From positions 1 through 43,942 of the forward strand of contig SCPD01000027.1 of assembly GCA_005502925.1 (NCBI GenBank): a DNA stretch of 43,942 bases. Reading direction: 5' to 3'. The position numbers and the translations under genes are program-made. The stretch's first letter is position 1. Every line of letters begins with the position of its first letter. The DNA comes from Rhizobiales bacterium Y(2018). GTDB lineage: Bacteria; Pseudomonadota; Alphaproteobacteria; Rhizobiales; Aestuariivirgaceae. The notes below the pieces were generated by a model. That model saw only the letters and a program-made list of their open reading frames with translations. It was not told where the DNA came from and did not search any database. This document shows, one piece after another, positions 2,349 to 41,039 of the stretch.

Positions 2349-2534
2349 CCCCTTCTCCCGCTTGCGGGAGAAGGTGCCCGATAGGGCGGATGAGGGTGTT
2401 GGTTCAGCTCACGACAGCTCGTCAGAAGAAGATGAGGAAGCTTCAACACTCTTCCGTGCTTTCGGCCTTGTAGACGCGGAGAGAACACCCTCATCCGGCC
2501 TTCGGCCACCTTCTCCCGCAGGCGGGAGAAGGGG
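2349..2534. repeat. Inverted pair of palindromic repeats with 83-nt core
   Basis: The left arm (2349-2400) and right arm (2484-2534) are inverted copies of a 50-nt unit, each carrying its own hairpin; 2351-2361 pairs with 2364-2374 around a 2-nt loop. The core (2401-2483) holds no gene. Its left end resembles the core at 38193 (GGTtCAGCTcAC against GGTGCCGCTGCAC), so the two elements look like diverged copies of one unit. It sits inside the ybh-like operon between the ATPase and first permease genes, where it could alter mRNA stability. Confidence 0.85.
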
Positions 2535-2559
2535 AAAATTCTGTGAGAGCCGTCACTTT

Positions 2560-5421: not shown

Positions 5422-6045
5422 ATGGCTGAATTATCAGAAGAAAAGAAGGAAACGTCGAAGCTTCGCAAATCCGACGCGACGCGCGCGCGCATCGTCGAGG
5501 CGGCCCGCGAGCGCTTTCGCAAGGAGGGTTTCGAGCGCACCACGATCCGCAAGGTGGCGGCCGATGCCGGCATCGATCCCTCGATGGTGATGCGTTATTT
5601 CGAAAGCAAGCGCGGCCTGTTCGCTGCGGCGATGACGGTGGAATTGCGCATTCCCGATCTGAGCCGCCATCCGCGCGACAAGCTCGGCGAGGCGATCATC
5701 ACGCATTTCCTCAAGCGCTGGGAGGAGCCCGATGCCGATTCTCTTCAGCTCCTGCTGCGCTCATCGGCGAGCAATGAGGAGGCGGCCGAGCGACTGCGCG
5801 GCGTCTTCCGCGACCAGATCGTCACCCTGGTCGGGCGTTTGCGGGGAAGTGAAACGGATGCGCGCGAAGTCGCTTCGCTGATCGCGACGCAGACGGTCGG
5901 TCTCGCTTATACGCGCTATGTGCTCAAGCTGCCGCCGCTGGTGGCGATGCCGCATGAGACGATCATCAAGGTGATCGGCGCCACCATCCAGCGTTACCTG
6001 ACCGAGCCCTTGCCGAAGACTGGCAGGACTGTCCGGGGAAAATGA
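5422..6045 (+). CDS. TetR-family transcriptional regulator
   Basis: A 207-residue repressor with a TetR_N helix-turn-helix at about residues 12-58 (TIRKVAADAGIDPSMVMRYF is the recognition part) and a C-terminal ligand domain of about 140 residues. It is divergent from the ybhGFSR-like operon with the palindrome GCCAACAATTGTTGGC between them. In E. coli the matching operon is controlled by another TetR protein, CecR (YbiH), which is co-oriented with its target; here the regulator is divergent. It probably represses the exporter, and possibly itself, until a ligand binds. The start is the only ATG before the conserved domain; no strong Shine-Dalgarno is seen. Confidence 0.93.
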   Translation: MAELSEEKKETSKLRKSDATRARIVEAARERFRKEGFERTTIRKVAADAGIDPSMVMRYFESKRGLFAAAMTVELRIPDLSRHPRDKLGEAIITHFLKRWEEPDADSLQLLLRSSASNEEAAERLRGVFRDQIVTLVGRLRGSETDAREVASLIATQTVGLAYTRYVLKLPPLVAMPHETIIKVIGATIQRYLTEPLPKTGRTVRGK

Positions 6046-6068
6046 AGAGGTACGGTCTCCCAAGATTT

Positions 6069-6119
6069 CCCCCTTCTCCCGCTTGCGGGAGAAGGTGCCC
6101 GAAGGGCGGATGAGGGTGT
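6069..6119 (+). repeat. Left palindromic repeat arm of the DUF559 unit
   Basis: This arm is nearly identical to those at 2349 and 38140: a hairpin CTTCTCCCGC-TT-GCGGGAGAAG followed by a second small palindrome and GGATGAGGGTGT. The ATG within its last dozen bases (6110) is the likely start of the DUF559 gene, and GAAGG just before it could serve as ribosome binding site. Confidence 0.9.
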
Positions 6120-6505
6120 ATGGTGCCGTTGTGACAACGCGCCAAATAGAGCCCAGGCGTCTAGATCAGGCCCGCCGTCTGCGCCGAAGCCAGACGCCGG
6201 CGGAGGAGAGGTTGTGGCAGAACCTGCGCGGCCGGAGGCTGCAAGGACATAAGTTTGTTCGCCAGCATTCCATTGGTCCTTTCACGGTCGACTTCCTTTG
6301 CCGCGAAGCAACCCTCGTCATCGAGGTTGACGGCGCAACTCACGCGGAAGATCGCGAGATAGAGTACGATGCGCGCCGCACGGCCTATCTGGGATCACAG
6401 GGATACCGAGTTCTTCGCATCGTCAATGACGATGTATTTCATCGCTTCAACGACGTGATGGACATGATCCTCCTGGCGCTCGCGGATAAGCTGCCGCCGG
6501 ACTAA
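6110..6505 (+). CDS. DUF559 endonuclease-like protein
   Basis: A 131-residue protein of the DUF559 family, a small PD-(D/E)XK nuclease fold related to Vsr mismatch endonucleases. Visible family features are TPAEERLW (residues 29-36), the GPFTVDF segment with Asp61, then the IEVDG strand with Glu72 and Asp74, His78, and a C-terminal YDARRTAYL...GYRVLRI block. The active-site set looks intact. The start is uncertain: ATG at 6110 lies inside the left repeat arm, and GTG at 6131 is an alternative. The stop codon is immediately followed by the right arm. The function of DUF559 proteins is largely untested; nuclease activity is inferred from the fold. Confidence 0.85.
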   Translation: MRVYGAVVTTRQIEPRRLDQARRLRRSQTPAEERLWQNLRGRRLQGHKFVRQHSIGPFTVDFLCREATLVIEVDGATHAEDREIEYDARRTAYLGSQGYRVLRIVNDDVFHRFNDVMDMILLALADKLPPD

Positions 6506-6560
6506 CCAACACCCTCATCCGCCCTGTCGGGCACCTTCTCCCGCAAGCGGGAGAAGGGGG
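6506..6560 (-). repeat. Right palindromic repeat arm of the DUF559 unit
   Basis: This is the inverted counterpart of the arm at 6069, beginning directly after the TAA of the DUF559 gene. It carries the same hairpin (CTTCTCCCGC-AA-GCGGGAGAAG) and the CCAACACCCTCATCC terminal segment. The 114 nt from here to the next gene show nothing further that I can name. Confidence 0.9.
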
Positions 6561-6674
6561 AATGTGGGAGAGTTCTGTATCTCCTCACAGAGGAAACCTC
6601 TCCGATCCTGTTCTTCACATGACGTTCCCCGATACCGAGCAGAGTTCCCCGGACAGTCCTGCGAAGACTGGCGG

Positions 6675-38139: not shown

Positions 38140-38319
38140 CCCCATCTCCCGCTTGCGGGAGAAGGTGCCCGAAGGGCGGATGAGGGTGTTGGTGCCGCTG
38201 CACCACAGTCTGACTGTTTTCTGGGCCTTCGTCTTTATCTCGCAAGCTCATTCGTCAGGTTCGGAGCCACACCCTCACCCGGCCTTTGGCCACCCTCTCC
38301 CGCAGGGCGGGAGAGGGGG
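38140..38319. repeat. Inverted pair of palindromic repeats with 74-nt core
   Basis: The left arm (38140-38192) and right arm (38267-38319) are inverted copies of the same repeat found at 2349 and 6069. The core (38193-38266) has no gene. It fills most of the 322-nt gap between smoF and smoE; the rest of the gap (38320-38431) shows nothing I can name. Each arm folds as a hairpin, and the pair could form a large composite stem that limits transcription or mRNA decay between smoE and smoF. Confidence 0.88.
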
Positions 38320-38431
38320 AAACTCTGAGAGGATGACGACTTGGCACTGAGCGACATGCTTGCAATAGGAGAGAAAAATGGCTGCCCGGCTCGTCGGTGC
38401 CGAGCAGCCGAGTTCGGGAGGAGCCGCCCCT

Positions 38432-40935: not shown

Positions 40936-41039
40936 CCGTCATCCCGGCGAAAGCCGGGATCCATTGAGCTCGCGCAACACGGGCAATGCTGCTCGCGTGG
41001 AAAGGCTTTTGTGGATCCCGGCTTTCACCGGGATGACGG
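40936..41039. repeat. Inverted pair of CGTCATCCCGG palindromic repeats
   Basis: A 28-nt unit (40936-40963) recurs in inverted form (41012-41039) with one mismatch. Each unit is itself a hairpin; the left has CCCGGC-GAAA-GCCGGG. The core of 48 nt holds nothing I recognise. This is a second repeat family, widespread in alphaproteobacteria, between smoC and the third ABC importer, where it may mark the end of the importer transcript. Confidence 0.85.

Follow-up and report, generated by a model that had tools for sequence, protein, structure and literature searches.

RAYT genes lie between inverted palindromic repeats whose type tends to follow the lineage of the enzyme, as set out in the part of the source available to us (PMC6006769). 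A different repeat, the TM motif of E. coli (TMECO, earlier PIT), was described in 23 copies and with a single strand that forms a purine-motif triplex in vitro by CD and NMR (Holder et al. 2015; PMC4666352); the same source, of which a part was available, reports an association of the motif with local genome variability and found none with transposons, phages or plasmids. Repeats of the TM/PIT kind occur widely and their triplex is stable in vitro, and the available part of the describing paper names neither an enzyme nor a mobile origin for them (PMC4666352). Here we report that genes for DUF559 nucleases are often bracketed by TM repeats and co-occur with them, making DUF559 a testable candidate enzyme for a repeat family of unknown origin and offering a role for a common 'endonuclease domain-containing protein' named in just 14 papers of the literature searched. 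The combination of DUF559 with TM arms was not seen among the literature matches listed, none of which linked DUF559 to these repeats; most subscription journals fell outside the scope of that search.

The locus lies in the window, the whole stretch of 43,942 nucleotides analysed here, from the genome of Rhizobiales bacterium Y(2018) (the source genome, G000). An open reading frame at 6110/6131-6505 encodes a DUF559 protein (PF04480, E 2.7e-35) and is flanked by inverted repeats at 6067-6102 and 6527-6562 that are 36 nt long and 100% complementary, bearing out the first-pass annotation, which had placed the gene between inverted palindromic arms. Read from the outside inward, the arm opens with the hairpin CCTTCTCCCGC-TT-GCGGGAGAAGG, continues with a smaller hairpin and closes with the tail GGATGAGGG, which adjoins the gene. 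The left arm, which we assign as a TM (intrastrand-triplex) arm from its sequence, the inverted repeat and a mirror rule set out below, occupies 6072-6116 on the plus strand, with the hairpin CCTTCTCCCGC/GCGGGAGAAGG at 6072-6095, a second hairpin GCCCGAAGGGC at 6097-6107 and the third-strand tail GGATGAGGG at 6108-6116. The right TM arm, recognised from sequence and as the inverted repeat, lies on the minus strand at 6512-6557, with its tail CCCTCATCC at 6512-6520, its second hairpin at 6521-6532 and its hairpin at 6534-6557. The annotation had also started the frame at ATG 6110, inside the left arm; this ATG does lie in the arm, within the third-strand tail, but is probably not the start. At the position of GTG 6131, two distinct close copies, one in genome G127 (L253 = L172) and one on contig C5 of the source genome (L006), read ATG, so the start probably lies immediately inward of the arm rather than within it, which gives a plus-strand gene of 124 codons plus stop at 6131-6505. 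The stop codon TAA, at 6503-6505, ends 6 nt short of the tail of the right arm, in keeping with the annotation. Rfam gave no match in the window. Another repeat, CCGTCATCCCGGCGAAAGCCGGGATCCA, forms an inverted pair of its own at 40936-40963 and 41012-41039, 48 nt apart.

Across 16 homologues, 13 positions of the protein do not vary; they include E32, D61, E72, D74, H78 and D87, some of which presumably supply the letters of the EDxHD motif. An AlphaFold2 model (pLDDT 78.4, pTM 0.70; the N-terminal 16 residues poor) retrieved 3hrl (NGO0050; E 6.5e-9), the homing endonuclease I-Bth0305I (3r3p; E 1.1e-5) and Vsr (1vsr; E 3.7e-3) with Foldseek, the last in agreement with the earlier statement that DUF559 is related to Vsr; sequence and profile searches also reach 3hrl and I-Bth0305I (profile against 3r3p, E 3.6e-5). 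By its modelled fold, the protein is a single-domain EDxHD/Vsr-type nuclease. It shares its catalytic-domain fold and conserved acidic and histidine residues with I-Bth0305I and Vsr; unlike them, it is one domain of about 110 residues that lacks a long DNA-binding extension and is encoded between two repeats, and no intron or intein was seen at the DUF559 loci read. For one DUF559 protein, VsrA of Caulobacter, the available part of the source (PMC12907096) reports that cells without the cytosine methyltransferase ScmA need it to mount the SOS response, which suggests an active nuclease. That requirement and the match to Vsr would also suit a host repair or maintenance function, in which an enzyme akin to Vsr would process structures or mismatches at TM motifs and be kept beside its substrates. 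We consider this very improbable: the patchy presence of DUF559 (43 of 115 genomes) looks selfish rather than housekeeping, and single genomes hold several divergent copies with different arm types, present in one relative and absent from another.

The arrangement resembles that of REPtrons (TnpA-REP/RAYT with REP/BIME), in which a gene likewise lies between inverted palindromic intergenic repeats, repeat type tends to go with enzyme lineage and gene-less inverted pairs are dispersed in the genome. The parts differ. A REPtron enzyme belongs to the HUH-Y1 class (Y1_Tnp), whereas that of the DUF559 unit is of the EDxHD/Vsr type (PF04480); REPtron repeats have a 5' GT(A/G)G foot, whereas GTRG occurs within 6 nt 5' of the hairpin in just 2 of 160 DUF559 arms; and the DUF559 arms, unlike REPtron repeats, carry a mirror third strand. 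DUF559 copies are, again unlike REPtrons, often several per genome and show presence and absence between relatives. With no HUH-Y1 protein and a GTRG foot in 2/160 arms, the DUF559 unit is not a RAYT system.

To score flanks, we aligned the 250 nt upstream of a DUF559 domain hit locally with the reverse-complemented 250 nt on its downstream side and took the best match, counting scores of at least 18. All six DUF559 genes found in the source genome have arms on both sides (seven hits, one C5 gene being split over two frames), although the arms of two of these units (C9 and C11:1105643) differ in sequence from those of the other four. Across the Alphaproteobacteria (115 genomes, 43 with a DUF559 hit), inverted arms flank 39 of 57 DUF559 loci outside the source genome, or 42 of 60 when three of its own loci are included, against 1 of 1955 geometry-matched placements in the same stretches, the three own stretches included; the 57 loci are all the non-own hits of at least 90 bits, with weaker, mostly partial hits left out. 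A family-level survey of 60 genomes (38 with a hit) gave 46 of 60 loci against 0 of 1863 control placements; its loci were drawn from about 99 non-own hits of at least 80 bits and comprise 19 of the 21 hits in the genus and 41 others, taken mainly from the top of the list with some contig-end hits avoided. This is the enrichment that the first-pass annotation's proposal of a repeat-mobilising unit implied. Counted by genome, 23 of 29 (class) and 22 of 29 (family) have at least one locus with inverted arms, and 0 of 1200 shuffled flanks pass. Loci with short flanks were kept in the class and family counts; the gene-level comparison, which omits 4 of 117, finds arms at 83 of 113 DUF559 loci and at 2 of 764 other open reading frames in the same stretches, one of which neighbours a DUF559 unit while the other encodes a GIY-YIG nuclease. 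Inverted arms are missing at this threshold from 18/57 class and 14/60 family loci, and direct repeats alone are present at four class and two family loci, that is, 6 of the 32 without inverted arms.

The arm-nuclease-arm arrangement thus recurs across the Alphaproteobacteria, and sometimes beyond them. Ten of 17 loci from a plasmid collection, chosen for spread among 39 records, score at least 18: four in Deinococcus, two in Pseudanabaena (L306 and the doubtful L314, inside a long annotated CDS), one each in S. meliloti and A. lipoferum, and two in S. parapaucimobilis. On the four Deinococcus plasmids the arms are flipped, with the hairpin inside and the tail outside. Plasmid-collection loci of E. 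coli, Photobacterium, Synechocystis (two) and A. brasilense (one) have no arms, scoring 12.5 or less. Direct rather than inverted repeats mark a Picosynechococcus locus (14.5 inverted, 73 direct) and an N. gonorrhoeae locus (14 inverted, 80 direct), the latter with TM-like motifs in direct copies. Among loci from named genomes (L176-L187), 8 of 12 pass, L177 being without a score; L172-L175 repeat loci of the family set and were not counted again.

The association extends to whole genomes. A single TM pattern matched in 22 of 30 genomes with a full-length DUF559 gene and in 3 of 85 without (Fisher 4.6e-14; 115 genomes); restricted to genomes of 2.4 Mb or larger, the counts are 20/25 and 1/34, and with any DUF559 hit counted over all 115 they are 23/43 and 2/72. 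This pattern misses CCCTCCCC-type stems, and its reversed control matched in none of the 115 genomes. TM matches exceed two per DUF559 gene in 19/30 genomes with the full-length gene and in 3/85 without; the three TM-bearing genomes that lack one are two assemblies of 77% and 81% completeness and one with a partial DUF559 hit. Arm type also tends to follow the protein. When the seven main tail types (60 rows) are mapped on a tree of 121 DUF559 domains, 21 changes suffice, against an average of 37.4 for shuffled types (minimum 33 in 200 shuffles), in a test whose shuffle ignores kinship, whose tree has few columns and which left out 27 of the 87 units with typed arms, labelled 'other'; short versus long linkers (87 rows) require 13 changes against 27.2 when shuffled (minimum 21). 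Tail types GGATGAGG, GGGTGGGG and GGATGGGG cluster on the tree, with none of 500 shuffles as low, while GGGTGAGG (41/500) and GGTGAGGG (500/500) are not clearly clustered. The GGATGAGG group places the window copy and L140 of the source genome beside L253 of G127 and L261 of G137, and the GGATGGGG group places L142 of the source genome beside L257 and L258 of G132. Arm type thus appears to cluster by DUF559 lineage, unevenly among types.

Although arm letters vary across genomes, and the arm types of DUF559 lineages include GGATGAGGG, GGGTGAGGG and GGGGTGGGG, one relation tends to persist: the tail mirrors the purine strand of the hairpin, setting G against G and A against A or T. Examples are the stem GGGAGAAGG with tail GGATGAGGG, GGGAGAGGG with GGGTGAGGG and GGGGAGGGG with GGGGTGGGGG. 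We assembled 160 of 176 possible arms from 86 of the 88 units scoring at least 18, requiring a pyrimidine-first hairpin and enough tail. Mirror matching, which here also allowed T opposite C, outdid direct matching in 90 arms, was worse in 11 and tied in 59. Own tails fit their stems better than permuted ones (7.49 against 5.66; maximum 5.96 in 300 permutations), as they do when the 34 distinct stems are compared (6.44 against 4.71; none of 1000 permutations reached the observed value). Direct matching beats its own permutations as well, by a smaller margin (6.26 against 5.48 and 5.44 against 4.61, respectively), because many stems mirror themselves. Judged from their letters, the mirror pairs are the triads of a purine-motif triplex, and the arms have, on one strand, the TM/PIT order of pyrimidine stem, purine stem and mirror purine third strand. 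By this logic the arms qualify as TM/PIT repeats. They share with TMECO both sequence and triplex logic, including copies in inverted pairs, the triplex of the arms being predicted from their sequence; they differ in bracketing a nuclease gene, the available text on TMECO containing neither an endonuclease nor a DUF (PMC4666352).

We lean towards reading the DUF559 gene and its two inverted TM arms as a compact selfish unit, REPtron-like but built of unrelated parts, with a homing-type nuclease that would act on the triplex arms. The nuclease would recognise the TM motif as a hairpin with a reverse-Hoogsteen third strand, most likely when replication or repair leaves the strand single, and would nick or cut at or beside it; host repair or recombination would then copy or move the arm-bounded unit, which would in this sense be mobile by its own nuclease. 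Gene-less TM pairs could be moved likewise in trans, as non-autonomous derivatives. Such a scheme suggests a REP-like system made from parts unrelated to RAYT/REP, possibly with an enzyme that reads structure. Against it count the loci without inverted arms, the flipped arms in Deinococcus and the direct copies in N. gonorrhoeae, and the small number of DUF559 elements, two, both with terminal inverted repeats, that show a clear target duplication; the uneven clustering of arm types tempers it slightly. The first-pass annotation had already proposed an autonomous and non-autonomous pair analogous to RAYT and REP. Flanking and empty sites fit this analogy, which gains from the arm-protein clustering and the genome-level co-occurrence; it loses the similarity claimed for one gene-less core, most other cores are of no help to it, and an outer element was the mover at the window site.

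Gene-less arms are abundant in the source genome. Its 7.10 Mb hold 146 copies of the core palindrome CCTTCTCCCGC-NN-GCGGGAGAAGG, against none of a reversed control pattern, which is not a chance level, and a longer arm pattern matches 62 times forward and 64 times in reverse; many of the listed matches to the arm pattern form inverted pairs about 120-160 nt long. Two such pairs lie in the window, as the first reading had said, with inverted repeats at 2346-2381/2502-2537 and about 38140-38188/38269-38320. The first, recognised by inverted-repeat search and arm pattern, comprises TM arms at 2349-2398 (plus) and 2485-2535 (minus) around a 91-nt core. The second, for which alignment of the core was also used, has a plus-strand TM arm at 38140-38188 and a core of about 80 nt; its minus-strand partner at 38269-38320, placed by inverted-repeat search and core alignment, has a variant stem and approximate boundaries. 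The claim that the core near 38193 shares its left-end letters with the DUF559 unit fell: TGGTGCCGYTG is present but not significant, the core from 38189 aligning to DUF559 units at 14.5 against shuffles with a mean of 14.0 and a maximum of 19.0, and we rejected this core as a DUF559 remnant. Twelve of 13 short cores aligned in this way against shuffles were not clearly DUF559-derived, a 94-nt core merely tying with its own null maximum (18.5). The exception, a 111-nt core on C4, scores 37.5 against a DUF559 unit at its 3' end (null maximum 23.0) and from this alignment clearly reads as an internal-deletion derivative of such a unit. Gene-less pairs could be ancient, or their arms alone could be what allows them to be mobilised.

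The search of the source genome for Y1_Tnp (RAYT-like) genes found one, L053 (G000:C11:636812; 30.4 bits), and the GGGAGAAGG stem was not found in its 3.3-kb locus; a RAYT of this genome serving the repeats was rejected on that ground. A search for RIME1 gave no match. In G121 (L246, L247 and L248) and on C9 of the source genome (L141), longer inverted repeats reach about 40-60 nt further outward from the arms, so the ends of the unit may lie beyond the hairpins in this lineage.

Relatives without the unit at the orthologous site, looked for because the first reading implied mobility, were found at the window locus and at others. At the window locus the unit sits within a larger element: 18-bp perfect inverted repeats GCAGGACTGTCCGGGGAA, of which shuffles gave an expectation of 0, bound 6023-6662. 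These terminal inverted repeats (TIRs), found by repeat search and by genome matches and resembling the end of ISRm16, lie at 6023-6040 (plus) and 6645-6662 (minus), and outside them an 8-bp target-site duplication GAAGACTG occupies 6015-6022 and 6663-6670 (both plus). In G127 the flanks meet at a single site, GAAAGCCG, so a 640-bp element was inserted at the window locus. Judged by this comparison, the last mover at the window site is the outer element with its TIRs and target duplication, not the arm-bounded unit alone, and we read it as a MITE-like carrier of the arm-gene unit. The unit favoured above would here have been carried, in addition, by a larger element with ISRm16-like ends.

The outer ends, which carry GCAGGRCTGTCC, have 27 matches in the source genome with at most one mismatch. 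Allowing up to four mismatches at the partner end, we found ten two-ended elements and one 130-bp pair; eight of the ten measure 335-343 bp, and the other two, with DUF559, 635-640 bp. Every one examined contains at least one TM hairpin. Exact 8-bp target duplications accompany four of the ten (GAAGACTG, CGCAAGCG, CGCTACGC and CGCCTCGC), and that of the DUF559 element on C11, CGCAAGCG, lies inside a TM hairpin loop. These ISRm16-like elements (window 6015-6670; L223, L229 and L231) are often at small GC palindromes, CGCAAGCG, CGCTACGC and CGCCTCGC, in one case within the loop of a TM hairpin. The IS4-like ISRm16 has a nearly identical end, GCAGGGCTGTCCGGGGAA, and in S. meliloti Ak57 it lies within a TM hairpin loop beside another DUF559 gene. 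ISRm16 and its MITE-like relatives thus share with the window element the end GCAGG(G/A)CTGTCCGGGGAA and insertion into hairpin loops, whereas the 640-bp element codes for DUF559 only; a search for the DUF4372 domain found no such transposase in the source genome, where some TIR matches lie at contig ends.

Such elements invite the reading that DUF559 and its arms are cargo of a DDE transposon, the arms being interior parts of MITEs or hot spots for insertion. The 640-bp element absent from G127, the ISRm16 end and the ten two-ended elements, each with a TM hairpin, all speak for it. Both TIRs, however, are present in only two of the six own DUF559 units, and units without TIRs are left unexplained; on this count we rejected the outer element as sole cause. 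What recurs over the class, moreover, is the arms; TM copies go together with DUF559 in the survey of 115 genomes, and clustering of arms by lineage does not necessarily follow from transposon cargo. We therefore regard the cargo reading as quite unlikely.

Other sites show the unit present in one genome and absent from another. A 574-nt unit of G127 faces 12 nt in the source genome with no TM pair, and the 587-nt unit on C22 of the source genome faces 168 nt in G127 with a different inverted repeat; this other repeat forms an inverted pair, GTCATGGCCG... / ...CGGCCATGAC, at about 1332-1500 of L323. Shinella PSBB067, in which the flanks stand 1 nt apart, lacks the unit seen in S. meliloti Ak57 and Sinorhizobium C101/K101. 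In Deinococcus sp. NW-56 the unit lies in a 511-nt insertion between two genes whose annotations in D. deserti, D. ficus and D. radiophilus overlap by 4 nt, the alignment being exact for D. deserti. D. proteolyticus has a unit at another junction of the same operon, and Sphingomonas parapaucimobilis one between sufB and sufC. DUF559 genes at different junctions of one hpa catabolic operon were also seen on Deinococcus plasmids of several species (L309, L310, L311 and L344); in D. wulumuqiensis the gene is annotated as just 162 nt long. The polarity of presence and absence is clear only where a target duplication exists, and by eye the few empty sites examined share no common target.

These sites bear on a third explanation, in which a free-standing homing endonuclease targets the TM pair and spreads by gene conversion into pre-existing arm-core-arm elements made by other machinery. 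Its attraction is that the closest characterised relative of the protein, I-Bth0305I, is a homing endonuclease, that gene-less arm pairs are abundant, and that the eight TIR elements of 335-343 bp with TM hairpins share the outer layout of the 635-640-bp elements with DUF559. Homing into existing TM pairs becomes less likely because no examined empty site keeps such a pair: the unit-free sites are the 8-bp site at the window locus, 12 nt, 168 nt and 1 nt, and at that of D. deserti two genes overlap by 4 nt. We consider this explanation unlikely, and keep to the proposed selfish unit, which would act through its own TM arms.

The GIY-YIG nuclease that passed the flank threshold has counterparts. 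At three of five loci examined, a different type of inverted palindrome, CTCCTTCGAGG..CCTCAGGATGAGG or a similar one, stands on both sides of a GIY-YIG open reading frame: at 7942-8316 of L299 (G147) and at L334 and L335 in Methylobacterium records. A second class may thus pair GIY-YIG nucleases with another palindrome, which would make them a second homing-type nuclease coupled to a repeat family.
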